Source: Closterium sp. NIES-65
Taxonomy: Eukaryota > Streptophyta > Zygnematophyceae > Desmidiales > Closteriaceae
DNA: 64,000 nucleotides
Assembly (NCBI GenBank): GCA_948144175.1
Contig: CANXME010002306.1
Location: 233,684-297,683 of the forward strand
Direction of reading: 5' to 3'
A model generated the notes under the pieces. The model was given only the letters and a program-made list of their open reading frames with translations, searched no databases and had not been told where the DNA came from. Below, piece by piece: positions 19,157-64,000 of this stretch; position 1 is the first letter of the stretch, and each line of letters opens with the position of its first letter. A program made the position numbers and the translations under genes.

Positions 19157-22100
19157 TCACTTTCTGCCCTTCCTCTGCTTCTGCTTTTTGCCCTTCGCTG
19201 CAACCTGCACTGCCGCAGCAACCCTCACATCAGCATCACTCCTCATGCGAATGGCTTTCCCTGAACTCTCGTCCTCCCCACTTGACGACGATCCAGATTC
19301 ACCGCCAACTTCCACCACCAATGCTGCTGCTGCTAATGTTTCTGCTGCTGCTGCTGCTGTTTCTACTGCCGTCCCTGCTGCTGCTCCTGGCGTTTCTGCT
19401 GCTGCTGCAGCCGCAGCCGCAACCGGCATCGCGGACCGTAGATCCTCCGATCGGTCCGAGGGAATGCTGTGATCCGCCATGGCATCAGCCGTGGCAGCCC
19501 GCACGCTCTTCGTTTCCAGCACCACCAGCTGCCGGTGCTCCAACTCAAACTGCATGAACGGCTGGCTCTCCCAGTCTGATGTGCACGCGTCCACCAGCGC
19601 TGCCAGCTGTCGCACGTTGCGCACCCGCGTGCCGTTGAGAGACACGAGGCACGTGTTGGTGATATCCTCATACCCTATGTTGGCTTCATGGGCTAGCACC
19701 TGGAGGGGGTGAGGGAGTGGGGAGAAGGCAGGGGACACATGTGCTCCGCATGCCCATGCAGCAGCTTCTGCAACAGCGAAACCAGCAAATCAATTGGAGC
19801 CACTTACCACATTCAACCTGCCTCAACCGTTCTGTACCTTCCCTGCTCTCCTCTCACCTGCCTAAACCGCTTCTCACCTGACTCAACACCACCACCTCTT
19901 CGTCCTCATGCTCCGCATGCCCATGCAGCAGCTTCTGAAGCAGCGAAACCGGCGACTCAAACTCAAACTCGCTCCCATACTCTGACTGCAAAAACGGCTG
20001 CACAGCAGGCGTAAAAACCAGCCCTGCCACGATCAGAAACGTTGGCAATTTGCCCCCCGTGTGCACCGGAATGAGTCGTTTCGGCGGCTTCAGCTGCACC
20101 TGAACCTTCATCAGCTGCCCGTCGCGGAGAATTTCCAGCCGGGCAACCTCGCCGGAAAACTTTTGGCTGACCAGAAACCCGTAGGAGATGCGCTCGCCGG
20201 TTCGGAAAGGCACAGTGCCGTCGCTGGCGATGGGTACATTATCAAATGACATAATCACATCCCCTTGCTGTAGCACCCCATGGGCTCGAGACGTCGGGTC
20301 GACTTTCCGCACGAGAACACCCTTCTGCCCGGGCGACATTTTCAGAGCTGCCCGAAGCGCAGGATTCTCCAGCCTCTGCCAGAGGATTCCGATCGCGGGG
20401 AAACCCGTGTACTGCCCGTTTCTTCGGTAATCGCCGAGGAAATGCGAGATGACCGGCGTCGGGATAATATACCCGATATTCTCCGTGTCACTATCCTTTA
20501 GTGACTGAAACGCTATCCCCACACACTCCCCGCGGTCGTTAAAAGCCGGGCCACCGCTGTTCCCCGGGTTGATTGCGGCATCAATTTGCACGCCTAGTAG
20601 CTCGGAGGCGCCGTGAGCGTATGCGGTTACTTCAATGCGAGAGACGACTCCAGAGGTGACTGAGATGCTGTCGCCCCCCACTGGGTACCCCACCACTGTC
20701 ACCGCGTCCTCCAAATGAGGGAGACCGCCGAACCTGTGGACGGAGGTAAGAGAGGGGAAGGGCACACACACAACAAGCGCCATGAGCGTATGCGGTGACT
20801 TCAATGCGAGAGACGAAGCCAGATGTGACTGAGATGCTGCCTCCCCCCACTGGGCACCCCACCACTGTCACCGCATCCTCCAAGTGAGGGAGACCGCCGA
20901 ACCTGTGAGGGAGGAGGAGGGGGGAGGGAGCACACACACAAAGGCGGTATGTGGTAGGAGGAAGAAGAGGTGACTGAGATGCTGTCGCCTCCGATTGTGC
21001 ACCCCACTGCCCCACCACTGTCACCGCGTCCTCTAAGTGAGCGAGACCACCGAACCTGTGTGTGAGGTGAGATTAGGAAGAGGGGCAGAAGGTGGAAACT
21101 GGGAGAGTGGGAGAGTGGGAGAGTGGAGAGGGGTACACCACCACTGTCACTGGGAACTCCAGATGGGGGCTTTTCACCTCACAGCACCTCACCAGAGGAG
21201 CGTGATGCCGCACCCCATGCTGATCGCCAGCACGCTTGAACCCAACCCAACACACACCTTATGCACCTCAAGTGCCTGAGTGACTGTCTGCCTTTAACCT
21301 CGCACCACCTCGCACCACCTCGCACCACCTCGCACCACCTCGCACCACCTCGCACCACCTCACAGCACCCCACCTCTGCGGAAGTACCTGAGGGGTTGGC
21401 GGTCGTCGTCCACAGCAAGGAGCATGATGTCGCACTCCACGCCGATTGCCATCAGCCCCTCACTGCACCTCTCAGTACCTCACCAGAGCACGCAGTACCT
21501 GTGCGGAACCACCTGGGCAACTGTCGGCACCCCACAGCACCCCACAGCACCTCACCTGAGCGGTTGGCGGCCCTGCCAGAACGACTCGTCGTCCACAGCG
21601 AGTAGCGCGATGTCGCACTCCACGCCGATCGCCAGCACGCGTGCGACAAACTTGGTGTCGTCGCCGCGTCGCTTCAGCTTCACCTGCGAGTGGTGGCGCA
21701 CGCGATACAATGCGCGTTCGTCAGAATTCGAGACATCCCACACAAAAAAAGAACAAGAGAGAGAGAAAAAAGAAAAAAACAGAGGCGTCTCAAAGCTTCA
21801 CCTGCGTGTGGTGTTCCACGCAATGCGCGTTCGTCAAAATTCGCCTGCCCGGAATCATAAACCCGCTGCCCGTCGACGAAAACTGCCGCCGCTTCTGCCA
21901 GGGCAACGAGAAATTCGGCTGCGTGTGCGTACAATACACCTTAACGACTGCGTCTAGAAACGGGGAATCCGGCACGTCATCCTCGATATTGTCTCGCGAC
22001 CCGCTAATAAGCCACGCCGCGTCCACATCCTTCGATAAACCCAGATCGCCCAAATCGGACGGCTCAGATTCAAGCAGACCCCCGTTTCCGGTAAACTCGT

Positions 22101-45739: not shown

Positions 45740-46480
45740 ACACATGTACATTTGTAATGAAACAGAAAAGGGAGGCCTTGGGATGGACCTCGGAAACTCT
45801 AAGAAGGCTGTCCCATGCCATGCCGCTTGGCTCTCATGCCTAAGTAGAGGGGGGGAGGGGAGGTGAGGAGTGGATTAGGGGAGCCAAGGGAGGGGGAGGG
45901 CAGAGGGGAAAGGGGGTCCCATGAGTGCCCCTCAATCACTCCTCCAAGACCCCTTGCTGCTCCAAGCTCATACCAAAGGAGGGGAGTGGGGGAGATGAGG
46001 GGTGAGTGTGGGGAGGGGAGACAAGGGGGGGAGGAATGCGGAGGGGGAAGTGAGGGGGAAGGGGTTCCAAAGGGTACACCTCGGAGACTCCTAGAAGGAT
46101 GGCCCGTGCTACCTCGCGTTCAAGCTAAAGGAGGGACGGGAGGAGTTGTGGGGTGAGTGGGGAGGGGAGATGGAAGGTGGGTAGGAAAAGGGATGGGAGG
46201 GGGGATGAGGGGTAAACAGGAGAGCAGCTGAGGGTTGAGTGGGAAGAGAGACGAGGAAGAGGATGAGGGGAGAGCGGAGGGGGATGAGGGTGAGACGGAT
46301 GGGGGATGAAGGTTAGACGGGCGGGGGGAGGGGGTGGGGTGGGGGGGGGGGGGGGGAGGGAAAGGCTTTTTTTTACTGGGCGAATGAGGAAAGAGCGGGG
46401 GAGACGGGGAGATGAGGAGAGAGGGAAGGGGAGATGTGAGAGGAAAGATGAAGAGGGGGGAAGGGGAGGGGTTTCATGGC
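45740..46480. repeat. G/A-rich low-complexity tract
   Basis: The plus strand is dominated by GGGGAGGGG-type runs without a stable period, including a long interrupted G run near 46320-46362. No gene is visible. G-quadruplex potential is high by inspection. Confidence 0.75.
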
Positions 46481-48510
46481 ATGGAATTTTGACATTTGCG
46501 AGAACATGTAACCTGCTCGCCGAAATCCAAGGTTCGCGAGATGGTGTAACGTGCTCTTGGACCTTCTTTCTCCTTTACCCGCCCTGCCCCGTTTTTAATG
46601 TCTTGCGCAACGGTTCAGACTAGAGCGCCTGCGCTTCGCCTGCCTAACGAGATCGACTGAGGCCGTGCGCTCTCAAGTCGAAGTTTATCAAATGACTAAA
46701 TTATAATCGACACTATCAATTCGTCCAATCGTTGCTACTATTCCTCCCGCTATTCGTGGCCTAGAAATTGTTGGATCTTACGCCTACTCGTTGCTTATTT
46801 CGCCTCAGCACTCGTGCAGCTATTAGACGTGGGAAGCGGCTTCAGATACTAGAAGTTCAAAGCGCTAACACTGAAGCGCGACCGACAGCACGACTGACAG
46901 AGACTACAGTAACAAGAGTCAAGGTATTCGCGCTAATCGGTGAAATGAACAAGAAGAAAGTGGAATTCGATCTTCCTGGTGAGAACACCAAGAACTCGGT
47001 GATGAGCTGGAAGGGGTGAGCTGGAAGGGGTGAGCTGGAAGATGACGGATGATAGCGGGAAACACCCCCCAATCCTATTGGCTCGCATATTTTTCCTCGA
47101 TCACCCGTTGCCAAATCATCTGCCCCGATCAAGTTCGCAAGGAACAAAATGAACCGCGAGAGCACCTGAACCTTCCGTTCACAAATCTTGTTGCGATTTC
47201 AATGCAATCCCGCACGTCACGCACATTTTTTCGCGAATTCATAGTCGGTCTATAGATGTAAAATACTTGTGCCACGTCACACCACCTCCTAGAAAAATAA
47301 TTTCCTGCCCCTCACCCAAACCAATTGTACCCGATATCAGAGTGCCCGTCAAACCACACCACAGCAGTACGCGTCCTCAGCAGATCCGCTTATATTCAGT
47401 CTGAACCAACGTAAGTTTACCAACCACCCTCTGAACTGTACTGTACATTTGAAATTAGTCGAGGGATGCCGGGTCGCGTTGGGATGAGTTTGAATGAACA
47501 CATTTCGGCAGCCTCGAATTTTGAGTTCATTGGGAACGCTTTCTGACATATTCTTTCTAGGCGGAATTATCTTTGGCGGCGCCAGACACCACACCACAGC
47601 CTCCAACGAAACACCACTCCAAGTCGTCACCATTCATCAGCGGCGGCCATCATCTCCGCCACTCGTTTCACTATTTCACAACCTAGCTTGCTATTCTAAC
47701 GGCACCAATGCACCATATCAGAGGCCCCGCGCTTGATCGCATCGCGCGGCTGAGATTCGCCAAAACACACAAAAGCTTTGGGATGAGTCCACATGCACAT
47801 TCAGTCGCGTTGAAGTCCCCATGGAAAATGTTCTTCGACATTTCCTAGGCGGGGAAATTCTATGGTGGCGGCGGCGATCACATCACATCACATCTCTATG
47901 GTGACCAATATTCATCGGTGGTGGCTATCATCTCCACCATCCGTTCAGCATATTCCTGTAACTAGCAGCAACGAAGGTCCGCACCGCGTTGCGCCACGCC
48001 CCACCGCCAACGGCAACTTTCCGAACCTGCATCGCCGCACCGCAAACATTTTGAGACGCGCCGCTCCGCTTGCGCAGCCCGCACCGCACCCAGAAGTTTC
48101 CGACCCGCGTCGTCTCTATCGACACTCTCCTCCTTCCAACCACCTTGTTCGATCGCCCCTTTCCTTCCATCAGCGCACTACAACTTCCTATTGTCAACTT
48201 CATTCTCGGATTTCAACCTTCCCAACTATTTCGTGGAAAGAACGTTTTAGAAGAGCTCCGTCGCCGTAAGCTCCGTCTCCATGAGCTCCGTCTCAATGAG
48301 CTCTACCTGTGGAATTCATGCGAAAATCTCTTTTGAGCAGTCTAAGCTACATCATGAAGCCACCCGAGCTAGTACAAGGGAAAGGCCAAGGCAAGCAGCA
48401 GCGCGTCTTAGAGTCCACGTAGGTTCGCGTAGGCGTTAGAGTTAGCATAGAGTCTAGAGTCGTGGGTAGGGTGGGTGGTAGAGAGTCTAGAGAGCTGCTT
48501 GCAAGCCTTG
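46481..48510. other. No gene recognised; contains a degenerate duplication
   Basis: Two stretches, about 47560-47660 and 47845-47945, share the order TCTAGGCGG (or TCCTAGGCGG), GGCGGCG, CACCATTCATC-like and GGC-ATCATCTCC-CACC, and look like an old tandem copy about 285 bp apart. Short open frames carry no known domain. Repeated GAGCTCCGTCTC-like words lie at 48255-48305. Confidence 0.4.
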
Positions 48511-48515
48511 GCCGG

Positions 48516-48857
48516 TGTCAGAATCCCAACCACTAGACCATTGGGATAAAAGGGCTTGTTAAGTAGCGGGTCAGTGCGCCCATAACCCCCCAGGACAACG
48601 AGCCTGTAACCCTTCCCTAGGATCAATCGGGGATCACCAGTGGACCTCTGACACCCCCCCGCACTGGGATGCCCGAAGTGCATACACCGGGATTCGAACC
48701 CGAGACCGCTCTGATACCATGTCAGAATCCCAACCACTAGACCATTGGGATAAAAGGGCTTGTTAAGTAGCGGGTCAGTGCGCCCATAACCCCCCAGGAC
48801 AACGAGCCTGTAACCCTTCCCTAGGATCAATCGGGGATCACCAGTGGACCTCTGACA
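48516..48857 (-). mobile_element. TRIM retroelement (terminal-repeat retrotransposon in miniature)
   Basis: Two nearly identical 138-bp terminal repeats (48516-48653 and 48720-48857) begin TGTCAG and end CTGACA and enclose only 66 bp. On the minus strand, TGGTATCAGAGC follows the 5' repeat directly and is the classic primer-binding site matching initiator tRNA-Met. A GGGGGGG purine tract precedes the other repeat. Five-base target duplications GCCGG flank the element (48511-48515 and 48858-48862). It encodes no protein and must have been mobilised in trans. Confidence 0.95.
48654..48719 (-). promoter_or_regulatory. TRIM internal region with primer-binding site and polypurine tract
   Basis: Read on the minus strand it runs TGGTATCAGAGCGGTCTCGG, then GGTTCGAATCCCGG, and ends GTGCGGGGGGG. 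The GTTCGAATCCC part resembles a tRNA T-arm, so the match to tRNA-Met seems to extend well beyond the usual 12 bases of a primer-binding site. Confidence 0.85.
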
Positions 48858-48904
48858 GCCGGAACCTTGTACTACGCCCTGTTCTTCGCGGCGAGAACTA
48901 CATC

Positions 48905-49159
48905 GTGAGAAACACCCTATGGCGAGAACTCCCTGTCAAGAACTCCACCGTCAAGATCGCGAGAACCCTGGGTGATTTTTACGGCAAGTTGACCACCGCG
49001 ATATCTTCCACCGCGATTATCATCGGGAAGTCTTCGCCTCGAGATCTTCTCAAGACGATCTTCAATGGCGCTTTCCCCGTCTCTGTTGGCGTTTACTCCG
49101 GCGCAGCTACCAAGGCGAAGGAGATGGGATTGTCATCTCTTCCAACTGGACGAAAGTAG
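48905..49159 (+). other. Short unrecognised open frame before the exon array
   Basis: An 84-codon frame with no known domain follows the TRIM element. It may be a leader exon of the array transcript or chance. A further stop-free stretch (about 49268-49515, bordered by CTGCAG and a GTAAGTATCG donor) leads into the first array unit. Confidence 0.25.
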
Positions 49160-49264
49160 CTCTTTTGCAACTTCCGCAACTGTTTCTCTCGTATTTTGCA
49201 ACTATTTTCTCATTCTTCATAAGGTTTTACTGGATAAACTCTAACGGATTTTCCTTCTTCCTGC

Positions 49265-52200
49265 AGGACACCGCCTTGGCGCTTTTCGACCAATCTTTAT
49301 CGGAAGTCAAGCCGAGGTCGTGCCTCGTCGTGACGCGGCCTACTGCTTCGCCTCGACGCAACGATGCGCTTCTTCCGTCGCATGGCGGCAAACGCAAGGA
49401 CATCTTCGCCAAAGTGGACATCACTGCGACAAAGTCGCCTACTGCTCCGGCAGATCCTTGTCTACTGCGACATCTTCGTCGCCGCAAGGAGACGATCTTC
49501 GTCCTTCTCTTGGTAAGTATCGTCAATTTCATCTTGTATTTTCTTTACGTTTTACTAACTTGCTCTTTTGTGTTTTCTGTCTTAGTGCAGAAGGAGCGGG
49601 ATGGGAAGCTAGCGGCGAGCAAGGGGGTTAACGGACTGGTCTCCCTCTCCTGGTAAGTCTCGCCGATTTCAGCTAGTTATGTTTTCGTTTACTAATTATC
49701 TCTTGTGTGTTCTCTGTCTTAGTGCAGAAGGAGCGGGATGGGAGCTGGCGGCGACCAAGGGAGTCTCACGGGGAGAGCTCTCCCTCTCTTGGTAACTATC
49801 GTCAATTTCAGCTAGAATTGTCTTTACGGTTTACTAACTTTCTCTTGTGTGTTCTCTGTCTATGCAGAAGGAGCGGGATGGGGAGCTGGCGACGACCAAG
49901 AAGGAACACGCGGAGAGCACTCCCTCTCTTGGTAAGTATCGTCAATTTCAGCTATAACTTTCTTTACGTTTTACTAAGTTCCTCGTGTGTGTTCTCTGTC
50001 TTTATGCAGAAGGAGCGGGATGGGGAGCTGGCGACGACCAAGAAGGAACACGGGAAGAGCTCTCTCTCTCTCTTGGTAACTATCGTCAATTTCAGCTAGA
50101 ATTTCGTCTACGTTTTACTAACTTCCTCTTGTGTGTTCTCTGTCTTAATGCAGAAGGAGCGGGATGGGGAGCTGGCGACGACCAAGAAGGAACACGGGGA
50201 GAGCTCTTTCTCTCTTGGTAACTATCGTCAATTTCAGCTAGAATTTCCTTTACTTTTCACTAACTTCCTCTTGTGTGTTTTCTGTCTTAATGCAGAAGGA
50301 GCGGGATGGGGAGCTGGCGATGACCAAGAAGGAACACGGGAAGAGCTCTTTCTCTCTTGGTAACTATCATCAATTTCAGCTAGAATTTCCTTTACGTTTT
50401 ACTAACTTCCTCTTGTGTGTTTTATGTCTTAATGCAGAAGGAGCGGGATGGGAGCTGGCGACGACCAAGAAGGAACACGGGAAGAGCTCTCTCTCTCTCT
50501 TGGTAACTATCGTCAATTTCAGCTAAAATTTCCTTTACATTTTACTTGAGAAATTTCCTTTGTGTAGGCTATAGTTGGGTTGTACCCCCTATGGGATACC
50601 CCACTATAGCCTACACAAATAAGTAAGCTATAACATTCTGACACACCCCCATAGGCAAAGTGGGGGAGAACAAGGGGTCACAAGACCAGTCAAGCAAAAA
50701 CAAAGCAAAGCTCAGGGTGGATCACAAAGTCACCACACATTCCGAGCACAAGTTCAAGGGCCACAAGGCCAGTTCACATGCAAGACTATATATAGAGATA
50801 TACAAGAGTCAAGCAAGCAAGAGCAAGAGTATATATAGGTCGAGGTACAAGCAAGGTCAAGAAGTGAGCAAGTGAGGCAAGACAGGCACAAGGCCCAACT
50901 GCGTGCAGCAGCGCTGATGATCACAAGGCGCAAGTGCCTTGGTGAAGACATCAGCAGTGTTGGCCTCAGAGGCCACGTACGCAAGTCGCAACTGTCCACG
51001 CTGCTGTAGCTCACGAGCAAGAAAGTAGCGGAGAGCAATGTGCTTTGTCCTGTGCTCCAGTCGCTGCTCTCGACACAAGGCCAGCATGGCCTTGTTGTCT
51101 ACGTACAGGACTGGAGGAGAACGAGGCGGCTCTCCAAGGTCGGTCAACAGGTAGGTGAGCCAGTGTAACTCCTGTGCAGCCATAGCCCCGGCGTAGATCT
51201 CAGCCTCACAACTGGAGCCGAGAACAGAAGACGAGCGGGTAGCCCGCCACGAAACAGAGCCGGAACGAAGGCTGAAGGTGTAACCCTGTGACGACCGCTG
51301 CGTAGCCTGGTCGTCAGCCCAAGAAGCGTCCGCGTGCCCAGTGAGGACCACTGGACTGCGCCCTCCAAGCACTAGCCCCATGCCCGACGTACTGCACAAG
51401 TAGCGCAACACCCTCTTCGCTGCAGCCATGTGCTCTGGTCGGTGTCTCCCAGGAGCAACATAGCGTGCGAGAATGCTAAGAGGGTATGCAAGGTCAGGTC
51501 GTGTGCACATCATCAGGTACATGAGGCAGCCAACAAGCTCTGCATACGGGCCACTCGACTCTACGGACTCATCCGAAGGCAGAGCTGAGAGCGAGTGGCG
51601 AGTAGGCAGAGGAGTGGCCTGAGGCGAGGAGTACATGAAGCCGAAGCGCTGAAGGACCTGCTGCACCATGTGTGACTGAGTCAGGGTAATGGTGCGGCGT
51701 GCTCTGTCTCGGGTGATCTGCAAGCCAAGGTAGCTGCGCAGTTCACCCAGGTCAGTGCACGTGTGTCTCTTCTGCAGCTCGGACTTCACGTAGGCGAGTC
51801 CAGCAGTGTCAGCTGTGGCAAAGACCAAGTCGTCGACGTACACGAGGATGTAGAACGGCGGCAGAGAGGTGTCGGTGCGCAGAAACAGCGACGGGTCGGC
51901 AGTAGAAGGAGCAAACCCAAGTGCCGCCAGCGTAGTCCTCAGTGTGTCGTGCCACTCACGTGGCGCCTGGCGGAGACCGTAGACTGGACGCCGGAGACTC
52001 CACTGGGTACCAGGAGGGAAAGACCCAGTGAAGCCAGGTGGGCGACGCAGCCAGATCTCCTCGTGCAGGCTGCCCTGCAAGAAAGCTGTGCTGAAGTCGA
52101 GAGAGTGCAGCTCGTAGTCACGGTGTGCAGCAACGTGCAGCAGTACCCGAAGAGTGGTCATCTTCGGGGTGGGGGAGAAGGTCTGAAAGTAGTCAACCCC

Positions 52201-55200
52201 CTGCCGCTGACTGAAGCCACGAGCCACGTAACGCGCCTTGAAGACAGGCGGAGAACCCGGCGGCCGCTTCACCCTGAAAATCCACATGCCACTGACGATG
52301 TTCGCCCAAGGAGGGGGAACAGCGTCGACGTAGGTGCCTGTGGACTTCCAGGAAGCCATCTCTGCATCCATAGCTGCCTGCCACTGAGAGGAGTAGGGAC
52401 CCTCTATCGCCTCCGCGTAAGAGCGCGGAGTCGGGATGTCTAGTGCATCCGGGTCTCCCTCAGGGGCTAGCAGTACAGACGCGAGATGAGGTGAAGCGGC
52501 GGCCAGACACTGGAACTCCTCCTGCCTGTCCTCAAGGACGTCCGTGCCAAGGGCACACTCACCCCCGACGGACGGAGGACAGGCAGACTCAGACTCAGCG
52601 ACAAGACTAGCAGCGTAGTCTAGACGACAGCGCGCAGCAAAGTCGACGAGCTCAGTGACAAGGGCAAACGCAGCAGAAGACTCGAAAGAAGGGTCAGTGA
52701 CAGCAGTAGCAAGGAGACGCGTGACAGTAGGACTGGCAGCACGAAGAGAGTCCGACTCCGGGTCGGCAAGAGCAGGAAGAGAGGAAGCAGGAGGAGAAGG
52801 CAAAGGGGCACGCAGAGGAGCAGTAGACGGACGCAGAGACATCCGGTGCGTGCCAGGGACAGGAGGAGGACGCTGACGCGAACCGCGACCACTAGCGCGC
52901 GCAGTACGAACAGGCGACGCAGGACGAGACGCAGGCTCACGACGCTCAGTAAGACCTCAAGTCGGACCAGCGTAGGGAGAAGGAGCAGGCAAAGGTGAGG
53001 CAGGCTGTAGCTGTGACTGGGACGAGACAGGCTGTGGACCCTCTAAGGGAGGAGGAGGAGGACCAGGAGAAGGTGTAAGACCAAGAACCTGCTGCAGGAG
53101 CGGAACGAAGTACGGCCGGGGCCGCGCGGCGACGTCAGAAACAGCAGGGACAGCACCAGAACCCCCAGCAGGAGTACCCGCTCCAGCAGCACCACCAGGA
53201 GCACCGCCAGTCGGACCTCCAGCGGCAGTCTCAGCGCCAACACCCTCAGCAGCACCAGCTCCAGGAGAACCCTCAGACCCAGCAGCTCCAGCACCCACAG
53301 TACGAGCACCTCCGGGACGCTCGGCAGCAGTACCCTCTGCAGTCGAAGAACCTCCAGGACCAGCAGCACGCCTCCAGCGCCTGGCAAACCACTCACGTAG
53401 CTCCTGTGGGGAGAGTGGCTCTCGGCGAGACGAAGCACCTCCAGGCGGAGCACCCCCAGTCTCAGCACCCCCAGGCTCAGCACCCCCAGGCTCAGCACCC
53501 CCAGGCTCAGCACCCCCAGGGCACCCCAGGCACCCCCAGGCTCAGCACCCCCAGGCTCAGCACCTCCAGACTCCGCACCCCCAGACTCCGCACCCCCAGG
53601 CTCAGTACCCTCAGGCGTAGCACCTCTAGTCTCAGCACCCCCAGGCTCAGCTCCCGTTGCAGCACCAGAGTCACCAGTGACCTCGACAGGCTCGACCGCG
53701 TCTACCTGGGACACACCTGAAGGGGCAGGACCCTGAGGGGGGAGGGGGTCTACCGGGGGGGGACCTGGTACCAAGAAGAGTGGGGGCGGGGGGAGGGACG
53801 GAGTGCGGTAGGGGAAGAGGCGGTAGTAGGGTACCGACTCGTCGAACGTGACGTCCTGGGAGGACAGAACACGTCGAGACGTGGGGTGGTAGAACTGCCA
53901 CCCAGGGGCGTCGGGGGGGAACCCCAGGAAGACGCAGGGAGCAGCGCGAGGGGACAGCTTGTCCGCAGACAAGTCGCGGACAAACGCCCGAGATCCCCAG
54001 ACCCGGAACGCCGACGCATCGCCAACCTTCCCCGTCTACAGCAGCGCTGGGGAGGTCTCCGGCCTAAAGACCCTGGGGTGGAGGTTGATCTGATGCGCTG
54101 CGTACCTGACCGCAAACGGCCACAGAAAATGGGGGGCAGCCGCATGCATCATGGACGTACGAGCGACGTCCATGACCATGCCAATGCGGCGCTCTGCAAT
54201 CCCATTTTGCTGCGGGGAGTCCGGAAGCGTGAAGGTCTGGCGGATGCCTCGCGCACGACAGTAGGCACGCAGAAGGCCAGAGGAGAACTCTCCGCCTCTG
54301 TCCGAGTGCAGACGCAACACAGGAAAGTCCGAGCCAAAGCTCTGCCTGAGCTGGAGACGAGCTGCGCGGATCCAGTCGATCAGCACCTCAGTGACATCAC
54401 CCTTGCTGCGCAAGGGGAAGACTGTGGTGTAACGCGAGTAGTCGTCAACCACCAACAGGAAGTAGCGCTCGTTACCGAGTCCACGGACGCGGGCAGGGCC
54501 CCACACGTCCATGTGAAACGTCTGCAACGGAGCCTCTGTCGGAGGAAACTGGGAGGAGTGAGGGGCAGCACGCTGGCGCCCCTCGACACAGGGGACACAG
54601 GCAGGGCCAGGGCCCTGAGGAAGGGGAGGTAGAGACCGGGGGAGACCAGACACAAGAAGACGGGAGGCCATGCCTCTGAGCCGAAGCAGAGAGGGGTGGC
54701 CAAGGCAGAGGTGCCAGAGGAGGGTCTCGTGAGATAGACGGCGACACGAACAGGGGGCAGACTCAGGACCAGACCTGGACGCTTGCAGCAAACACCTGAC
54801 CAGACGAAGGGACTCTACCAGACTCAGCACCTGGAGGAGAAGCAGTGGTCAGTGTGTACAGGCTCGACCCTGGCTGACGTGTAAACGTAGCCAGGTGACG
54901 ACCCGTGCTAGCCTCCGTGCAGTGCGTCACTCGCTGACTAGCAGGGGTGAACTGGTGGACTCCCGCATCCTGTAGGTCAGCACCACTCACCAAGTTCGTA
55001 GAGAACGAGGGGAGGTAGAGACCAGACAGGGTGCCAGAGGGAGCCGCCGGACACGGGAGGACTGTGGAGAAGCGAGACAGGACAGGACCCCCAGAGGGGT
55101 CAGCCAAGGAAACCGCAACCGGCCGACTAAGCGGCGTAAGTGTGGTGCGGTCCCGAAAGAAAGAGCGAGACGCTTCAGAGTCAAGAGTGAAGGTGAGGGA

Positions 55201-58200
55201 GGCCGAAGCCGACGCAAGTACCTGAGAGCGCAGTCTCACGAGCACCTGAGAGCACAGACGCACTGGCACCTAGAGCAGAAGCCTCACCGGCACCTGGAGC
55301 AGCAGTACCAATGCCCGGGTCGGGCGGGAAACACCGGTAACAGTCACCCTCCTCACTAATGGTCACAGCATACATGGCAGCAAGGATAGCATCAAAATCA
55401 AGATCAAAGATAGCTACACCAGCCCTAGACAGCTCTCCCCAGCGGGGGATCTCCGCGGCCTCCGGGAACTGCTGACGCCAAGCGTCCGTCAGGCGGCCAA
55501 AGCAGCGCTGGGCGGAGTGGGCACCCCCCACACTGCTCTCCAGTGCGGTCGCCAGTGCGGAGAACGTAGGTGCAGGGACCAAAACCCCCACCGCGCTGAC
55601 GCTGCGTGTACCACTTACGGAGCTGCTGAGGGGTGGGGACGTCGCGAGAACGCTGCTGCTGGCTGCTGCTGCTGCTGCTGCTGGCGCTGACCGCCACCAG
55701 TGCCGCTCCGCTGCGAAGCTCCACTCCGACCACCTCCACCTCCGCCACCCCCGCCTCCGCCTCCACCGCCCCCGCCTCCACCTCCACCGCCGCCAACTCC
55801 GCCACCTCCGCTACCACCGCCACCGCCGCCGCCACTCCCGCCTCCACTGCTGCCACTAGCACCCCCACCCCCGCTACCACCTCCACCGCCACCCCCACTC
55901 CCTCCGCCGCCTCCACCTCCACCGCCACCGCCCCCACTGGCCCCACCCGCTCCCTTGCCCCCCTTGCCCTTGCCAGAGCGGCGTCTCCCGCTAGGGGCAG
56001 ACGCCGCACCGACCGACTCAAGACCAACGAGGTCGGCCGCAGCGGCAGAGGCGACAGAGGGCAGGAGAGGGGAAGGAGAACACCCCTCAAAGATGGGGGC
56101 GCGAGGGTCACCTCGAGAGGCTCCTACAGCGACTATTGCTCTTCTCTGCTGCAAGGAGGGCCTTCTCTAGGCTGTCGACTGTGAGGGTGGTGGGACAGAA
56201 TGCGAGGAAGTGGTCCCGGACTACACGAAGGGAGTCAGGGAGGCGAGTGACTAAGAAGTAGAGAGTGATGTACATGGGGGGGGGGTTCTTGGCGCAGAAG
56301 TCAGCAGGAAGCGCAGCGCGGTAGCGAGTGTCACTAGTGCGGAGGTGCGTGATGAGATCAGCGACAGTGGGAAAGGCGGCAAGGTCAGGAAAGAGGAAGG
56401 GGAGCATGAGGCGGCTCAGTGCAGCAGTGGCAGGGGAGGAGTAGTAGCGCGCAACTACAGCGTCGTACAAGGTCTGGGCACTCTTGTACTGGCTAAAGTG
56501 CGCGCGCTCAGCGGTAGGCAAGTGGCGACGCACAGCAAGACGTGCAGCAGCATCGCGCGTGGCCCACTGTGAGCGAACAGTGGCGTCAGCATCAGCAGCA
56601 GGGAAGGGACGGTGCCAGAGGTGAGGTCAAAGAGAGACAGACCGTCCGCACCTATCGCACTGTAAAACAGCTGCAGGTCGTCTAGCCAGACCTCAAAGTC
56701 TATGGCTCGACCCTCAGCGTCAAAAGCGAGGGACACTAGGTCGTAGCCAGACGACGAGAGTGAAGCAGTGCAAGCAGTAGGGGAAGGGCACGCAGTGAGA
56801 GCGGGTACAGTGCTCACCGGGCAGGGCAGGTCGGGCGGCTCGGGTAGAAAGGCGGCTCGGCTACTCAGCGACTCGGCTCCTGGGCGGCTCGGCTCCCCTG
56901 GTGGCTCGGCGGTAGGCGGCTCGGGCGGGGCGGCTCGGCTGCCGGGCGGCTTCGGGTTGCAGGGCGGCTCGGCTGCACTGCTGCTCGGCGGTACGGCGGC
57001 TCGGCTGCTGCAGGTGGGCGGTTTCAGCTGCTGCAGTTGGGCGGCTCGGCTGCTGCAGTCGGGCGGCGCGAGAGCAAGGGGCGGCGGGGCCGTGAGTGCT
57101 GGGGCGGCGGGGCCGCGAGACCAGGGGCGGCGGGGCCGCGTAGTAGGGGCGGCGGGGCCGGGAGCGCTTGGGGCGGCGGGGCCCGCGAGATCAGGGGCGG
57201 CGGGGCCGTGAGCGCTGGGGCGGCGGGGCCGCGAGATCAGGGACGGCGGGCCGTGAGATCAGGGGCGGCGGGGCCGCGTAGTAGGGGCGGCGGGGCCGGG
57301 AGCGCTTGGGGCGGCGGCCGCGAGATCAGGGGCGGCGGGGCCGTGAGCTCTGGGGCGGCGGGGCCGCGAGATCAGGGACGGCGGGGCCGTGAGATCAGGG
57401 GCGGCGGGGCCGGGAGCGCTGGGGCGGCGGGGCCGCGTATCAGGGGCGGCGGGGCCGGGAGCGCCGGGGCGACGGGGCCGCGTATCAGGGGCTGCGGGGC
57501 CGGAAGCGCTGGGCGGCGGGGCCCGAGATCAGGGGCGGCGAGGGCCGCGCTTTCAGGGTCAGCGGGGCCGCGAGATCAGGGGCGACGGGGCCGCGAGATC
57601 AGGGGCGGCGGAGCCGCGTGAGGAAGGGCGGCGAGGGCCGCGAGAGCAGGGCAGCGAGGCCGCTAAGGCGGCGCGAGGGCGGGCAGCGGGGCGCGGGCGC
57701 TAAGGCGGCGCTCGGGCTGCTAGGGCGGGCGGCTCGCTAAGGCGGCGCTCGGGCCGTTAGGGCAGATCGAAAAAAAAAAAGTGAGAGCAAGGGCCCGGAG
57801 CGCGCTCCGGGCAGAAAAAAAAAGGTTCGATGTGGTGGGCCCTAAGCAAAGTTCCCACGGGGGAACCTGCTCGATACCATGAGAAAGTTAGAACGAGAAT
57901 GAAATGACTATGAATGAAGTGAGTACAAATAGGAAACCCTAGTTGGGTTGTACCCCCTATGGGATACCCCACTATAGCCTACACAAATAAGTAAGCTATA
58001 ACATTCTGACATTACTCACTTCCTCTAGTGTGTTCTCTGTCTTAATGCAGAAGGAGCGGGATGGGGAGCTGGCGACGACCGAGAAGGAATACGGGAAGAG
58101 CTCTTACTTTCTCTTGGTAACTATCGTCAATTTCAGCTAGAATTTCCTCTACGTTTTACTAATTTCCTCTTGTGTGTTCTCTGTCTTAATGCAGAAGGAG

Positions 58201-61200
58201 CGGGATGGGGAGCTGGCGACGACCAAGAAGGAACACGAGAAGAGCTCTCTCTCTCTTGGTAACTATCGTCAATTTCAGCTAGAATTTCCTTTACGTTTTA
58301 CTAACTTCCTCTTGTGTTCTCTGTCTTGATGCAGGAGGAGCGGGATGGGGAGCTGGCGACGACCAAGACGGAACAAGGGGAGATTTCTCCTCCTCTTTGT
58401 AAGTATCGTCAATTTCAGCTAGTATGTTCTTTACGTTTTACTAACTTATTCTTGTGTGTTCTTTGTCTTAGTGCAGAAGGAGCGGGATGGGGAGCTGGCG
58501 ACGACCAAGAAGGAAGACGCGGAGAGCTGTCCCTCTCTTGGTAACTATCGTCAATCTCAGCTAGTATTTTTTTTTTACGTTTTACTAACTTCCTCTTGTG
58601 TGTTTTCTGTCTTAATGCAGAAGGAGCGGGATGGGGAGCTGGCGACGACCAAGAAGGAACACAGTAAGAGCTCTCTCTCTCTTGGTAACTATCGTCAATT
58701 TCAGCTAGAATCTCCTTAACGTTTTACTAACTTCCTCTGTGTGTTCTCTGTCTTAATGCAGAAGGAGCGGGATGGAAGGTTGGCGACGACCAAGAAGGAA
58801 CACGGGAAGATTTCTCCTTCTCTTTGTAAGTATCGTCAATTTCAGCTAGTATGTTCTTTACGGTTTACTTATTCTTGTGTGTTCTCTGTCTTAGTGCAGA
58901 AGGAGCGGGATGGGGAGCTGGCGACGACCAAGAAGGAAGACGCGGAGAGCTCTCCCTCTCTTGGTAACTATCGTCGATTTCAGCTAGTATGTATTTTACG
59001 TTTTACTAACTTATTCTTGTGTGTTCTCTGTTTTAATGCAGAAGGAGCGGGATGGATGGCTGGCGACGAGCAAGAAGGAACCCGTGAGATCTCTCCCTCT
59101 CTTCGTAAGTCTCGTCAATTTAAGGTAGTATGTTATTTCCGATTAGTAGTTTATTCTTGTGTTTCTCTGTCTTAGTGCAGAAGGAGAGGGATGGGAGCTG
59201 GCGACAAGGGAGGTCAAGAAGAAATGAACGCTTTCCCTATCCTGGTAAGCACGGTCCGATTCCGTTCGCTTTTTTCTTCTTTCCAGATTTCTAACTTCGA
59301 GTTTCGTGCCTCTTGTGAACCAGGAGCGGGAGGAACGCGTGGCAACAGCGTGAAGGTAAAGAAGAAGAGAACGCTCTCCTTCTCCTGGTAAGCACGGTCT
59401 TATTTGTTCGTTACTTCTTTTTCGAGATTTCTAACTTCGAGTTTCGTGGCTTGTGAAGCAGGAGCGGGATGAGGAGCAGCACGTGGCAACAGCGGGAGGA
59501 AGAAGAATCATTCTCCTTGTCCTGGTAAGCATGGTCTGCTATCTTTCGTTTCTTCTATTTCGAGATTTCTAACTTCGAGTTGGTGTCTTTCGCGCAGGAG
59601 CGGGCGGAGGAGGAGCGCAGGCAACACCTGGAGCGGAATGGGGAGGTACCACGCGGAGAGCTCTCCTCTCTCCGCAAGTATCGTCAGTTTCAGTAAGTGT
59701 TCTGTTTATGTTTTACTGTACTAAGTATTCTTTGTGTTCTGTCTTGGTGCAGAAGGAGCGGGACTCGGAGCTGACGGCGAGCAAGGGGGTGACGGAATGG
59801 TTCGGCTCTGCTGGTAAGGGCGTGTGAGGTCTTTGTAGAAGTTCAAAATAAAGTTCGAACTTTGGGTGGTTACCCTATTCGCTAATTTCACGAAGGGTGC
59901 TTCGGGAACCAAGCATTGTATGGGCTTTGCAAAAGTTCGAGTTTGAAATATGAACTTGACTCGAGTCGGAGGCGGGAACGTGCGTGCGCACGTTCATGCG
60001 AGCGTGTGTGATTTGCAGCACGTCCCGAACAGCTGGCGAAACTGGCGAGTGCTTCGCCAATGCATAAAGTTGCACAACGAAGACACCCCACAATTCGTGC
60101 ACACAGTGGTAGCCACGTGTCCAGCATCGTGGCATGTTCGAGCACGATGTGGCAACGCGTCCCGCCCGTCTTGACGTCAGTCAAAGAAACTCCCGCCCTT
60201 GGCCAATCCACGTCCCCGCACCAAATGTCTTTGAAATCCTGTGGGAGTGGAAGGCACTTGATACATTCAAATATACCACCCTTCTCCAACACTTGTGTAC
60301 TGTATACGCAAATTCCATTCGACATGACAAACGGCAACACTAGCGCCCATGGCTCTGCCACACCGGCAGATGCTACCACTCCAACAGCCTCTACTCCCGC
60401 ATCTGTCGCTGCACCGGTCCGCGCACCCGCACCTCAGCGGCGTCGGCGTACTGCTGTTGATCTGGCCGCTTCGTGGCGCCTTGGAGTTATCGACCTGGAC
60501 GATATCGTGGCGCGTGTGCAGAACGGGAACACTCCTCTAGGTGCTGACGACGACACCCTCGCGTACTTCGACGGAGGCGAAATCGACAAAAACTGCCATG
60601 GCGAAGACGGCGCCGACGACGACGCCGATGCAGCGACGCCCATCGACAAAAAAGGTGGGAGCCGGCGGAAGTCATGCAGCTGGCGTGGATCCGCCACGAC
60701 TTCGACGAGCAATATCAGAATCTGTGCCGCCTGCAAGGCCAGAACCGGGACGTCATGCTCTACGAGCAAGTCCGTCTTCGTCACCCCGGATGGGCCATGG
60801 TCTCGCAGCCACGAAAGCCAAGGTTTTCCGTATGGAGGCTCAGTGGCGGAACGTGTCGGATTTATTGCTAAAACTTCCGGGAAGGGGAAGCCCCTAAAAT
60901 GCCTATTTTCTATGACATATTCGACAGGTTCTAGGGGATCGGGCGAATGCGCGTCCCCCGGCGCTCGCGGGCCCCTTGATTCCCGCAACTACTACCGCGC
61001 CTCCTCCTAGTAAGTGTTGATTGTTGTTTGATGTGATCCTTTTTTTTTTACTGCTCATAATTTAAGATTGATGCTACTAATACAACCATTCAACAAGGTG
61101 GCATGTAATAATGAAACCACCCAACACCCCCATATGCGACGCCCATCACCGGCAGATGTGGCGTCTCCTACCACCGCATCAGCGGTGTCTGCAGGGCCCG

Positions 61201-63650
61201 ATGGCGTAGCGGCATCAGCAAGCCGAGCGCAGTCGGCTCGTCGCTCACCCAATCCCCGCCGAGTGACGGCTTCGCCTGGTCACTCTCCTTCGCGCCAGCC
61301 ATTTTCGTCTCCGTCTACGTCTGCGCTTGCGCCGGACGTGTCCCCCGCCGCTGCCACCGCCACTGCATTCTCATCCCGTTCACACGTCGTCGGCGCGAAC
61401 GCGGGTGTTGCGCTCCGTGGCCGCGGTGTCTCCGCCGGCCTGGGCCTGCGGCTGCCGAAGAGGAACATTCGGGCAACGACACAATGGGAGGTGGTGTTGG
61501 TAACCACATGAACTCAAGTGATTCAGTGCTGTGTGCTGAAATAGCGGGGATAATTGCGCAATCGGTAAAAGGGGCTATGCGGGACCAATTTGATGAGTTT
61601 TTAAGAACGTACCCAAGAGATGGTTGAGAGAGCTCAGGATGCCCGAGCCTCAGGAAGCGTAGAAGTACGCCGCCAGGCGAGATCGACGACGAGTCGGAGT
61701 AAAGCCCGCATCGCGCGACGAGAAATGCGGGGCCTCCGCAACGGGTCCTTCCAGCCACCAAGTGTTGCGCTCATGAGGTTCGTTCAGGCGGTGACGAAAC
61801 CCGGATGAGGTCGATGTTGTGTGAGCACGATGCAGGCGGATACGACCTGCGGGGCGCGGATGACATCGCACTCGAGGCGCCCGTCCAGGATGCGCCATTT
61901 GGTCTTCAGCCTCCCGTTCACTTGCTCCACAATCATTCGAGTGCGGGACTGCTGGAGGTTCCAGACTCGCTGATGGTCGGGAAGTGCGATGCCGGGAAGG
62001 GCATGATAGGGTGTGTAGATGTAGGGCCTCAATCCATAGCAGCGTCCGCTACTAGCGTGTAGTCCAAAATCCCTCCTTCTTCAATTTTAGTTCTTGCAGG
62101 GCTGTTCATGAAAAACCCGAGCGTCGTTGACGCTTCGGGATATCCTACAAAAAAGTCCCAGATGAGACCCATGCGTCGCAGATTAGTTGGCAAATAATAG
62201 AAAAGAAACCTTTCCTATTTCTGAAGTCTTCGCAATGTGGTCCCATGCCACGGCAGTGTATGTAGGTCCCGTCCATGGCGCCTACCACCCCAGGTATTCC
62301 GGCTTGAAGGCGAAACTCTGTCTCAAACAACTGCAGCATGTCCATGTCTGCCACACGACCCACTTGGGCAGGACTTCGTTGACGAAAAAAAACGAACCTC
62401 GCAAACAGCTTGTGGGCGTGGGAGAAAGAGTAGCCGAAGTGAAGCCCATTTCGCAAAATGTGAGACCATGCCCAAGCCTGCTAAGTCCCATGGCGACGAA
62501 TACAAAGTTATGCACAGGATGCTTAAGTGTAGCGAAACGGCTGCGCTAATACTGGCGCACTAAGTACACGAAAACGCGTTTGTCAACCCGCAAATACTCA
62601 TAGAAAGTGTACTCGGGCAGGGATGTTATCAGTCGAAACCAACGCACACGTGCGTCAAGGCGGTCGCCAAGCACGCAACCCGGGTCTGCCTGAGAGTGAA
62701 GGCGAGACGAGCGTGGGAGTGCCGTGCAACAGCGTTGAGAACAGGAAGCATCACCATCTGCAAGTACCCTTGCCATACGATGCCGAGAAAGCGGACCAGC
62801 TGTAGGGTTGTCATGTTGGGCGAACGAGTATACAAGGTGTTGCCACGGGGGCTATTTGTACCGTGGTTACACACTCGGCGCGGAAGGTGAGTTGGAGCTC
62901 TAGGTCTTTGTAAACCGAGGCGCAAAATGTTGACGTGGCGCACTGTCAAGACTCTCGAACCGGGTAACCTATGATGTTGATGTGTGGCTCGGCTCGTTTT
63001 TGCAAGTTTGAATGTCGGGGTTCGACCTTGTATGTGTGGTGTGATTTTTTACAGTGTGGTAAGCCCGATGTTCGAACTTCGATAGAAGGAAATTCGAACT
63101 TCTTTCGTTGTAAGTTCGAAACTAAAATTCGCCCTAAAAAACATAAACTTTTTACAAATTTCAAAGACCTCACACGCCCTAAATCCCGTCAGTGTTTACC
63201 TCGTTTCCGGTCATCAGTCTTCTGTTTTTGCCCTTTAGCGAGATCTGTTACCTATGTTTTTTTCCTTGCCCTTCCGTGAGCAGGAGCAGGAGCAACACCT
63301 AGGGTGGGCGGGGGAGGTAACCGGGGCTCTCCCTCTACTGGAAGTTTTGTCAATTTCAGCTGTATTTTCGTTTACGTTTTACTAAGTTCCTCTCTTGTGT
63401 TCTGTCTTTGTGCAGAAGGAGCTCCATGGGGAGCTGGCGGCGAGCAAGGGGATAAACTGAGTGGTCTCCCTTTTTTCCTAGTAAGTTCCGTCAATTTCAA
63501 TTTCGTTCTTCCTTATCAAAACACTAACGTTCTCCCTTGGTTTGGTTTGTGGCAGGAGTGTGAGCAGGCGAGGAGCGCGGAGAGGGAAGCCGCGCGCCTC
63601 GATGGAGCAAGGAGCTTGGAGCGGCAAGCTTTGAGCAACCAGCCGTGTAA
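49265..63650 (+). CDS. Hypothetical multi-exon gene built from the repeated exons (tentative)
   Basis: If the array is transcribed and spliced, about 23 small exons (7 before the copia element, 13 between the elements, 3 after Harbinger: about 63284-63316, 63416-63480, 63556-63646) would encode a charged, coiled-coil-like protein with repeated KERDGELATTKKEHG; the final exon reads ECEQARSAEREAARLDGARS. Donors and acceptors look functional by eye. However the common exon length is about 64 bases, so successive exons shift frame; stop-free alternatives in the other frames soften this. No known domain. It may equally be a satellite that merely carries splice-like sequence. Confidence 0.3.
49591..50541 (+). 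repeat. Exon-intron tandem array, left part (7 units of about 142 bp)
   Basis: Seven units start at 49591, 49728, 49868, 50010, 50154, 50296 and 50438. Each comprises a pyrimidine-rich stretch ending TTAATGCAG or TTAGTGCAG, about 64 exon-like bases beginning AAGGAGCGGGATGG, and a donor-like GGTAACTATCG or GGTAAGT followed by a conserved intron-like 78 bp (CAATTTCAGCTAG...TTTTACTAACTTCC). Frame 1 reads KERDGELATTKKEHGKSS. Most units also lack stops in the other two frames (GAGWGAGDDQEGTREELS and RSGMGSWRRPRRNTG). The array is cut by the copia element at 50547. Confidence 0.93.
50547..50643 (-). repeat. copia 3' LTR (97 bp), rearranged
   Basis: Shares about 70 bp, from TAGTTGGGTTGTACCCC to TTCTGACA, with the other LTR. 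Its outer part is replaced by TTTCCTTTGTGTAGGCTATAG, whose TGTGTAGGCTATAGT is the inverse of ACTATAGCCTACACA within the same LTR, creating a near-perfect hairpin. Confidence 0.85.
50857..52842 (-). CDS. copia reverse transcriptase and RNase H
   Basis: About 660 codons without a stop. The reverse transcriptase (RVT_2 type) begins around YAEAIEGPYSSQWQAAMDAE and contains WIFRVKRPPGSPPVFKARYV, GVDYFQTFSPTPKMTTLRVL, LDFSTAFLQGSLHEEIWLRR, the catalytic YVDDLVF, and LGELRSYLGLQI. The RNase H domain follows with GHADASWADDQATQRSSQGY, an SSCEAEIYAGAMAAQELHWL block, YVDNKAMLAL and EHRTKHIALRYFLARE, ending VFTKALAPCDHQR. All catalytic motifs are present. The upstream part is Ser/Pro-rich linker. This is the best preserved segment of the element, but it is no longer in one frame with integrase. 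Confidence 0.95.
   Translation of the reverse strand: MSLRPSTAPLRAPLPSPPASSLPALADPESDSLRAASPTVTRLLATAVTDPSFESSAAFALVTELVDFAARCRLDYAASLVAESESACPPSVGGECALGTDVLEDRQEEFQCLAAASPHLASVLLAPEGDPDALDIPTPRSYAEAIEGPYSSQWQAAMDAEMASWKSTGTYVDAVPPPWANIVSGMWIFRVKRPPGSPPVFKARYVARGFSQRQGVDYFQTFSPTPKMTTLRVLLHVAAHRDYELHSLDFSTAFLQGSLHEEIWLRRPPGFTGSFPPGTQWSLRRPVYGLRQAPREWHDTLRTTLAALGFAPSTADPSLFLRTDTSLPPFYILVYVDDLVFATADTAGLAYVKSELQKRHTCTDLGELRSYLGLQITRDRARRTITLTQSHMVQQVLQRFGFMYSSPQATPLPTRHSLSALPSDESVESSGPYAELVGCLMYLMMCTRPDLAYPLSILARYVAPGRHRPEHMAAAKRVLRYLCSTSGMGLVLGGRSPVVLTGHADASWADDQATQRSSQGYTFSLRSGSVSWRATRSSSVLGSSCEAEIYAGAMAAQELHWLTYLLTDLGEPPRSPPVLYVDNKAMLALCREQRLEHRTKHIALRYFLARELQQRGQLRLAYVASEANTADVFTKALAPCDHQRCCTQLGLVPVLPHLLTS
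53043..53972 (-). pseudogene. copia integrase C-terminal region and linker, frame-disrupted
   Basis: Begins SADKLSPRAAPCVFLGFPPD and reads YHPTSRRVLSSQDVTFDES, the usual C-terminal extension of copia integrase, then a Pro-rich and Gly/Ala-rich linker. It is in the same frame as the integrase core but separated from it by a TAG at about 54034. Within the linker a 15-bp repeat (CCCCCAGGCTCAGCA on the plus strand, 53440-53660) carries indels that shift the frame. Confidence 0.75.
54036..54830 (-). CDS. copia integrase core
   Basis: GAG-pre-integrase zinc motif (LLWHLCLGHPSLLRLRGMAS followed by CVPCVEGRQ) and catalytic rve domain. The D-D-E residues lie in FHMDVWGPARVRG, LRLHSDRGGEFSSG and SPQQNGIAERRIGMVMDVAR. 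LVVDDYSRYTTVFPLRSKGD sits between the first two as in other copia integrases. The frame stops at 54036, before the C-terminal extension. Confidence 0.93.
   Translation of the reverse strand: MLSLVESLRLVRCLLQASRSGPESAPCSCRRLSHETLLWHLCLGHPSLLRLRGMASRLLVSGLPRSLPPLPQGPGPACVPCVEGRQRAAPHSSQFPPTEAPLQTFHMDVWGPARVRGLGNERYFLLVVDDYSRYTTVFPLRSKGDVTEVLIDWIRAARLQLRQSFGSDFPVLRLHSDRGGEFSSGLLRAYCRARGIRQTFTLPDSPQQNGIAERRIGMVMDVARTSMMHAAAPHFLWPFAVRYAAHQINLHPRVFRPETSPALL
54763..55269 (-). CDS. copia aspartic protease region
   Basis: Reads LTFTLDSEASRSFFRDRTTL and following VAVSLADPSGGPV, then LSGLYLPSFSTNLVSGADLQ, the usual protease layout of this copia group. The active-site triplet is DSE here instead of DSG/DTG, so it may be changed or degenerate. 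The frame differs from those of gag and integrase, and overlaps both ends slightly. Confidence 0.75.
   Translation of the reverse strand: MPVRLCSQVLVRLRSQVLASASASLTFTLDSEASRSFFRDRTTLTPLSRPVAVSLADPSGGPVLSRFSTVLPCPAAPSGTLSGLYLPSFSTNLVSGADLQDAGVHQFTPASQRVTHCTEASTGRHLATFTRQPGSSLYTLTTASPPGAESGRVPSSGQVFAASVQVWS
55181..56817 (-). pseudogene. copia gag region, in four frame segments
   Basis: Starts MSTVPALTACPSP at 56817 and contains the gag core (IDFEVWLDDLQLFYSAIGAD, FSQYKSAQTLYDAVVARYYS, PMYITLYFLVTRLPDSLRVV, LEKALLAAE). After this come a Gly-rich tract of about 90 residues, a Cys pair (YTQRQRGGGFGPCTYVLRTG) and RRWGELS-like sequence before the protease. The frame changes near 56605, 56145 and 55660 and again before 55590. 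Several changes fall in homopolymer or Gly-codon repeats. Confidence 0.8.
56830..57760 (-). repeat. GC-rich tandem repeats in the copia 5' leader
   Basis: Between the 5' LTR and gag, units of about 23-35 bp made of GGGGCGGCGGGGCCGCGAGA and variants (CCGTGAGCGCTG, CCGCGTAGTAG) fill about 600 bp, preceded nearer gag by GGCGGCTCGGCTGC repeats. The content is over 75 percent G+C by eye, much above the rest of the element. Confidence 0.9.
57868..57879 (-). promoter_or_regulatory. copia primer-binding site
   Basis: TGGTATCGAGCA on the minus strand directly follows the 5' LTR. It matches the TGGTATCAGAGC consensus for initiator tRNA-Met at the first seven bases and then departs by a missing A. Confidence 0.7.
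57880..58011 (-). repeat. copia 5' LTR (132 bp)
   Basis: Begins TGAGAAAGTTAGAACG and ends TTCTGACA on the plus strand; directly flanked by the primer-binding site on one side and TTACT on the other. The promoter should lie here; no clear TATA box is visible. Confidence 0.88.
58051..59815 (+). repeat. Exon-intron tandem array, right part (about 13 units)
   Basis: Units start near 58051, 58195, 58335, 58477, 58621, 58762, 58900, 59042, 59181, 59324, 59462, 59598 and 59753. They continue the array at 49591 with the same acceptor, AAGGAGCGGGATGG exon start and GTAACTATCG donor. Units become more diverged to the right: those from 59181 on have GAGCGGGAGGAACGCG and GAGCGGGCGGAGGAGGAG and different introns (TTTCGAGATTTCTAACTTCG). 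The last unit ends in GGTAA, where the Harbinger element is inserted. Confidence 0.92.
60324..60870 (+). pseudogene. Harbinger Myb/SANT-like DNA-binding protein, frameshifted
   Basis: The ATG at 60324 opens an Ala/Thr/Pro-rich N-terminus, then RRRRTAVDLAASWRLGVIDL and an acidic stretch. A Myb/SANT-like block, WEPAEVMQLAWIRHDFDEQY, continues to LRHPGW, but in a different frame; the change falls at a run of six A (about 60645-60650), a likely one-base slip. In PIF/Harbinger elements such a protein helps bring the transposase to the element ends. The region from 60870 to 61500 has Pro/Ala/Ser-rich frames that may be its C-terminus or unrelated. Confidence 0.7.
61784..62776 (-). pseudogene. Harbinger DDE transposase, several frameshifts
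   Basis: The minus strand reads VRWFRLITSLPEYTFYEYLR near the start (62680-62600), then the core GIPGVVGAMDGTYIHCRGMG with EDFRNRKGFFSIICQLICDA (62330-62180), which holds the first Asp. A second Asp lies in LVADAA (about 62045), followed after a one-base shift by GLRPYIYTPYHALPGIALPD. The Glu is in RTRMIVEQVNGRLKTKWRIL (about 61935). These are the DDE_4 motifs of PIF/Harbinger. Frame changes at about 62545-62460, after 62145 and at about 62040 mean no full protein can be made. The 5' end is unclear. Confidence 0.85.
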
Positions 63651-64000
63651 GTGGGTCTGGGCCCTGGCCCCTGGGTGGTTGGTCTACGTTTAGGAGCGTT
63701 TAGTCAGAACGTTTAGGAGCGTTAGTCAGATCGTTAGGCTCGAATTAGGCCTAGCTAGGGGACGAGTTAGCCTTAGCTAGGCTCGGATCTGGTTTGCGGT
63801 CTAGTCTAGACCTAGGTCGAACTAGCTAGGACGTTAGGTTCGGACGGTCCTGTGGTGGTTGGTGCGTGGTTGGGTTTGGTTTAGGGCTGTCTTTGATCTT
63901 CCCTCTCTCCTTCCGTAGGTCAACATGGCGGGAAACTCGCTGCCCTGTATATAATCTTACCCGTTCCCCCTCCTTTCTGCCCTGTAAATAAGTCCCCTCC
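63183..64000 (+). other. Right flank of Harbinger: last array-like exons, then unrecognised sequence
   Basis: Exon-like segments at about 63284, 63416 and 63556 continue the array theme, with acceptors GAGCAG, GTGCAG and GGCAG and donors GTAACC and GTAAGT. The unit at 63416 contains an in-frame stop in its main frame (GGGATAAACTGA). From about 63680 the motif CGTTAGG and GGCCTAGCTAGG repeats loosely. No further gene is recognised up to the window end. Confidence 0.4.

Follow-up and report, generated by a model that had tools for sequence, protein, structure and literature searches.

The nearest non-coding designs that we found to the array described here, a series of tandem exon-plus-intron units in the desmid Closterium sp. 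NIES-65, are the IPW-A/SNORD116 host array and Firre. IPW-A/SNORD116 has tandem non-protein-coding exons separated by introns (PMC4742849, PMC9369261); its introns carry C/D small nucleolar RNAs (snoRNAs), and the sequence of the IPW exons is not conserved between mammals (PMC4742849). In Firre, a local repeat (RRD) forms 7 of the 13 human and 11 of the 23 mouse exons of a non-coding RNA, is largely confined to one locus and diverges between species (PMC4820808). Tandem, similar short exons open to exon choice are also known from the Dscam exon arrays (PMC1397879).

The Closterium array lies in a 64,000-nucleotide stretch of contig CANXME010002306.1 (positions 233,684 to 297,683), hereafter the window, in whose own numbering positions are given. 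Its repeats run head to tail, each with an exon, a donor, an intron and an acceptor, as in the IPW-A/SNORD116 type. The introns differ from the snoRNA-bearing ones of that host array in being only ~78 nt long and in giving no Rfam match, and the IPW-A/SNORD116 repeat unit is much larger than the ~142-bp unit seen here. The likeness to Firre is that of a repeat forming many exons of a non-coding RNA, which in Closterium is a predicted one; unlike in Firre, exon and intron repeat together as a compact ~142-bp unit and the arrays are carried by a small dispersed family. Schistosome micro-exon genes resemble the array in the same way as Dscam does, but both are coding and micro-exon lengths are divisible by three, whereas exon lengths here ignore the frame. 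In LPA kringle IV-2 and NBPF, whole exon-intron segments occur in tandem and in variable number, but these are coding and have kilobase-sized units, unlike the present array. No description of this family was found in a literature search of partial coverage with narrow terms.

Judging from sequence, we favour with modest confidence the reading that the array forms the central part of a multi-exon gene belonging to a small dispersed family, the product of which is probably a spliced non-coding RNA. A profile search found 22 tandem units of ~142 bp in the window copy, plus a half unit that forms the end of the preceding exon, over 49.5-63.6 kb with transposon interruptions (Table 1). With Tandem Repeats Finder (TRF), the period is 142 bp over 49506-50546 (7.4 copies) and over 58012-59205 (8.5 copies), and 138 bp over 59216-59604. 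The initial annotation had placed about 20 units of this size at 49591..59815, and 20 of the 22 exons fall in that interval; the units are real, but they do not form a continuous array, since a copia element at 50547-58011 occupies 73% of it. Nor does the array end at 59815, as units 21 and 22 follow at 63284-63480 behind a Harbinger-like element.

Each unit is ordered as acceptor, ~64-nt exon, donor and ~78-nt intron. A CAG acceptor is found in every window unit, exon starts having been assigned to the nearest CAG or TAG, and a GT or GC donor in all except unit 21. Exons begin with AAGGAG or GAGCGG and have a purine-rich body; the length of 64 bases given in the initial annotation is exact for 12 of the 22, the remainder lying within 57-76 nt. 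Donors such as GTAAGT, GTAACT and GTAAGC are followed by introns mostly of 73-80 nt, in which a pyrimidine stretch is present and many of which carry a TTTACTAAC-like motif.

The genome examined comprises 874 Mb in 2400 contigs, and all match counts in it are lower bounds. Matches to the A-type unit lie on C2008 (the contig of the window), C2321, C295, C885, C2090, C1790, C316 and C1834. Locus A is represented by copies on C2008, C2321 and C295, with the array end also on C885; locus B is C2090, locus C is C1790/C316/C1834, and the arrayless locus D is C2188. Locus A shares with the unlinked loci B, C and D a block that, in the sister copy C2321, extends ~0.55 kb beyond the end of the window, with identities among loci of roughly 70-81%. 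The array occupies a fixed position within this block in the paralogs A, B, C and E. In D both block ends are present with LINE-like and copia-like sequence between them (by eye), and a profile search of the C2188 locus detected no array units. The counterpart of the pre-array exon measures 263 nt in B and 141 nt in C, the homology of the latter being uncertain, and the GTAAGT that follows the probable exon 3' of the array is kept in A, B and C.

More distant members have units of ~131 bp. Locus E, as described from C1316 and C2224 (a third match being on C2015), has six such exon-intron units beside a leading half unit, lying between short matches to the block, which amounts to some flank homology. 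C1739 has them in two places, F (two units) and G (four, one broken by an insertion), both assigned to the family by units alone; the 205000-213000 region of the same contig, examined for a weak flank match, contained no units. Unit number is thus 22 in A, 17 in B, 18 or 17 in the copies of C, 6 in E, 4 in G and 2 in F, so that the group comprises arrays with between 2 and 22 units and one locus with none. Among A, B and C, the last seven units at the 3' end correspond as individual orthologues, while inner units resemble one another within each locus.

The genome search proposed in the initial annotation, made with the unit, edge units, the flank and the E unit, returned matches at only a handful of loci, as lower-bound counts, and a widespread intergenic satellite was rejected; A, B, C and D moreover have common flanks. 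A larger segmental duplication was also rejected, as flanks beyond the block had no collinear match over the stretches compared, which were ~15-18 kb to either side at B and C, 7-9 kb at D and, at A, the window upstream and ~6.6 kb downstream. The leftover flank matches were a copia element and pieces presumed to be transposable elements. As to a mobile element with clear ends, no clear terminal repeats were seen at the block ends, which are approximate and not base-precise.

Splice signals are well kept. In A, B and C, a GT donor is present in 58 of 60 rows, one further row having GC and one having lost the T. The four GT/AG columns average 99.6% conservation versus 82% for all 142 columns, a level that random four-column sets reach with P 0.00016; the acceptor columns rest on 44-46 rows, since alignments of divergent units stop short, and because units are homogenised copies, such column tests overstate independence. 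The difference is smaller among the seven orthologous units at the 3' end, where 25 of the 28 GT/AG columns agree between A, B and C, compared with 664 of the 912 columns in exon and intron (P 0.035). A GT donor was also read by eye in all 22 listed rows of E, F and G. These counts support the view of the initial annotation that each unit comprises a whole exon and intron, acceptor and donor included.

A reading frame, by comparison, is not kept in A, B or C. Unit exons range from 54 to 88 nt and are not tied to multiples of three, and orthologous exons differ in length by a multiple of three in 8 of 20 comparisons. The exons had been described as mostly stop-free in all three frames. Taken singly, this is so for 12 of 22 in A, 7 of 17 in B and 4 of 18 in C, against shuffled means of 3.4, 3.6 and 3.4; as the units are copied from one another, these counts are not independent. 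The idea that frame shifts need not create stops did not survive joining the exons, as stop codons span 14 of the 21 joints of the window copy, 7 of the 16 of B and 9 of the 17 of C; where TTG or TTT meets AAG, TGA or TAA, respectively, arises in one frame. With stops in every frame of the joined exons of A, B and C, the suggested protein family of frame variants finds no footing. Exon columns sorted by position in three gave no usable pattern. We conclude that the family keeps no common reading frame. A coding exon array or micro-exon gene was rejected on the grounds that lengths ignore the frame and that no frame is open in B or C, with E1 as the exception.

For a spliced RNA of this kind, we infer that the gene is transcribed through the array and that each unit, made up of a single short, purine-rich exon and the intron belonging to it, would be spliced as an ordinary small exon. 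Unequal exchange may duplicate or delete whole units and so change exon number. Since acceptor and donor come with the unit, adding or losing one unit would alter RNA length by one domain and leave splicing undisturbed, and with no frame to keep, such gains and losses would be tolerated. The product would be a long spliced RNA with many copies of a ~64-nt domain, the purine-rich exon body. It is probably non-coding, given that conservation extends to the splice signals but not to frame or exon length, and could act as a multivalent repeat RNA, for example as a binding platform or localisation signal. More tentatively, and with some doubt, selection may hold the splicing signals and not the exon sequence; a satellite-like exon-intron unit would then grow and contract in number (from 2 to 22 between loci), and the RNA may be a spliceosome-assembled repeat polymer with its length set by unit number.

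Several observations weigh against a spliced non-coding RNA, among them a load of transposable elements and scattered splice-site losses that fit a decaying relic. According to this rather unlikely alternative, the array descends from an old spliced gene in which the unit was amplified, is not transcribed, and retains its signals through homogenisation and recent duplication. It would account for the various insertions that array copies have taken up (a copia and a Harbinger-like element in the window copy; another copia and ~1.6 kb in an exon in C295) and for D, where LINE-like and copia-like sequence (by eye) stands in place of detectable units. The donor T of unit 21 is lost in all four A copies read, one acceptor is missing in E2 and two are altered in G. 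Exon identity (319/428) is not above intron identity (345/484, P 0.30); such equal divergence shows an exon seemingly without special constraint and is also what a relic would give. Splice columns better kept than the average column speak against a relic, weakly so (P 0.035) in the non-homogenised 3' units, as do the donors of B and C1790, kept in 37 of 37 cases. High conservation is not peculiar to the splice columns: thirteen columns are 100% kept, including most of the exon-start AAGGAG, and the donor T ranks only 16th. A YTNAY branch motif is present in 56 of the 57 introns, though shuffling the introns still yields one in 81%. A search for spliced retrocopies, with A-type exons only, found none: the A-type joint pattern gave 1 match versus 6 for the control, that match being a 22-base near match with only 12-36-base matches around it, and four joined A edge exons matched the genome exon by exon only. 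The exon fold amounts to 4 predicted pairs, one with a two-sided change, in an alignment with 10 of 16 rows one base off.

The preferred non-coding RNA must also be set against a protein-coding gene with tolerated frame variants, which we regard as very improbable. The stop-free single exons of A could be read in its favour, and the joined exons of the window copy contain an open run of 385 codons, longer than in all 2000 order shuffles. That run has no Pfam match and is absent from the sister copies tested, which like A, B and C have stops in every frame; the longest runs of other copies are unexceptional against order shuffles (P 0.72 in B, 0.10 in C1790, 0.08 in C1834, 0.17 in C2321 with 15 exons from units 8-22, and 0.24 in C295 with 17 exons). 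In E1 a single frame runs open through the seven exons listed, but their lengths (45, 46, 47, 45, 45, 65 and 65 nt) follow no rule of three either, and exon joints elsewhere create stops. A stretch just past the window end, with indels of 3 and 6 bases before a common TAG (by eye), would suit a coding gene, but in a six-frame comparison the homology among the matches listed was alike in several frames and on both strands, with stops. Similarly improbable is that the introns are the functional part, for example as a tandem intron set raising expression of the host transcript. Their common anatomy and near-constant length (mostly 73-80 nt versus 54-88 nt for exons) would agree with it, but conservation of the intron body does not exceed that of the exon, and neither an Rfam match nor, by eye, a snoRNA box was seen.

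Two further candidates were rejected at the RNA level: a snoRNA host gene, the ~78-nt introns having no Rfam match (none in the window at gathering score, nor in 58017-59817 up to E 1), and a structured exon RNA, with four predicted pairs only.

The large transposable elements of the window copy are not in B or C. The copia element is inserted at a branch-site-like TTACT in the intron that follows exon 7, and C295 has an empty site at this place. The PIF/Harbinger-like element, which has a DDE_Tnp_4 match in the piece 61787-62080, lies directly after the GTAA of the unit 20 donor; it is absent from B and C, and the array resumes behind it. The TRIM-like element, whose primer-binding-site-like motif and strand were judged by eye, is absent from C295 and B. 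C295 has insertions of its own, another copia within the array and the ~1.6 kb mentioned above, inside the exon of unit 4.

Table 1. Positions of the array, its exons, the shared block and transposable elements in the window.
Feature	Position	Strand	Evidence or remarks
Exon preceding array, 246 nt	49267..49512	+	Acceptor CCTGCAG, donor GTAAGT
Array block 1, exons 1-7	49591..50546	+	TRF, profile search
Exons 1-4	49591-49652, 49728-49791, 49868-49931, 50010-50075	+	
Exons 5-7	50154-50217, 50296-50359, 50438-50502	+	
Array block 2, exons 8-20	58012..59817	+	TRF, profile search
Exons 8-12	58051-58116, 58195-58258, 58335-58398, 58477-58540, 58621-58684	+	
Exons 13-16	58762-58825, 58900-58963, 59042-59104, 59181-59244	+	
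Exons 17-20	59324-59387, 59462-59524, 59598-59673, 59753-59813	+	GC donor at 59598-59673
Array block 3, exons 21-22	63183..63556	+	Profile search
Exons 21 and 22	63284-63340, 63416-63480	+	Donor T of exon 21 lost in four A copies read
Probable exon 3' of array	63557..63646	+	Limits by eye from alignment
Shared ~8-kb block (length without transposable elements), window part	46240..64000	+	Common to unlinked loci B, C, D
Ty1/copia element, 7465 bp	50547..58011	-	Target duplication TTACT; RVT_2, rve, gag_pre-integrs domains
PIF/Harbinger-like DNA transposon, 3362 bp	59818..63179	-	18-19-bp terminal inverted repeat, TAA duplication
TRIM-like element, 342 bp	48516..48857	-	Terminal repeats identical over 138 bp; target duplication GCCGG

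Within the shared block, two stretches outside the array are well kept. The 5' one (48340-48515; 87-88% to B and C) holds a 22-codon open frame starting with MKPP in A and B and with MNPP in C, and at its counterpart in D the ATG is absent from that place. The 3' one (~63718-63836) includes GCGTTAGTCAG-like sequence; it is 86-87% identical in all three of A, B and C, with conservation above that of an average exon or intron column within the units. The short stretch beyond the window end, where A, B and C differ by the indels ahead of the common TAG, lies within ~0.12 kb of that end in the C2321 copy, and the substitutions seen in it are mostly non-synonymous (by eye). In locus E the array is preceded by a tandem repeat of another kind, made up of short GACCAAGACGAC-like copies (~6500-7200, reversed stretch).

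Elsewhere in the window, a 169-bp tandem duplication (20608-20941) is located at an exon of a DEG-type protease with Trypsin_2 and PDZ matches in 19854-20867, and further broken copies of this exon piece adjoin it (by eye). A 1-kb query from this gene (19900-20900) matched at full length and near identity on C2008, C295 and C276 only, as if the assembly carried three copies of that region; matches elsewhere were partial (69-75%). A 20-bp tandem repeat at 27892-30061 (108.6 copies, 95% matches) has three minus-strand frames open over 700 codons.

If the array is transcribed, it would mean that a repeat of satellite size can include both an exon and its intron and multiply within a gene with splicing unharmed. 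The loci would then provide a natural series of unit numbers (0, 2, 4, 6, 17, 18 and 22) for the effects of repeat number in a non-coding RNA, and would allow the behaviour of splice signals under concerted evolution to be tested.

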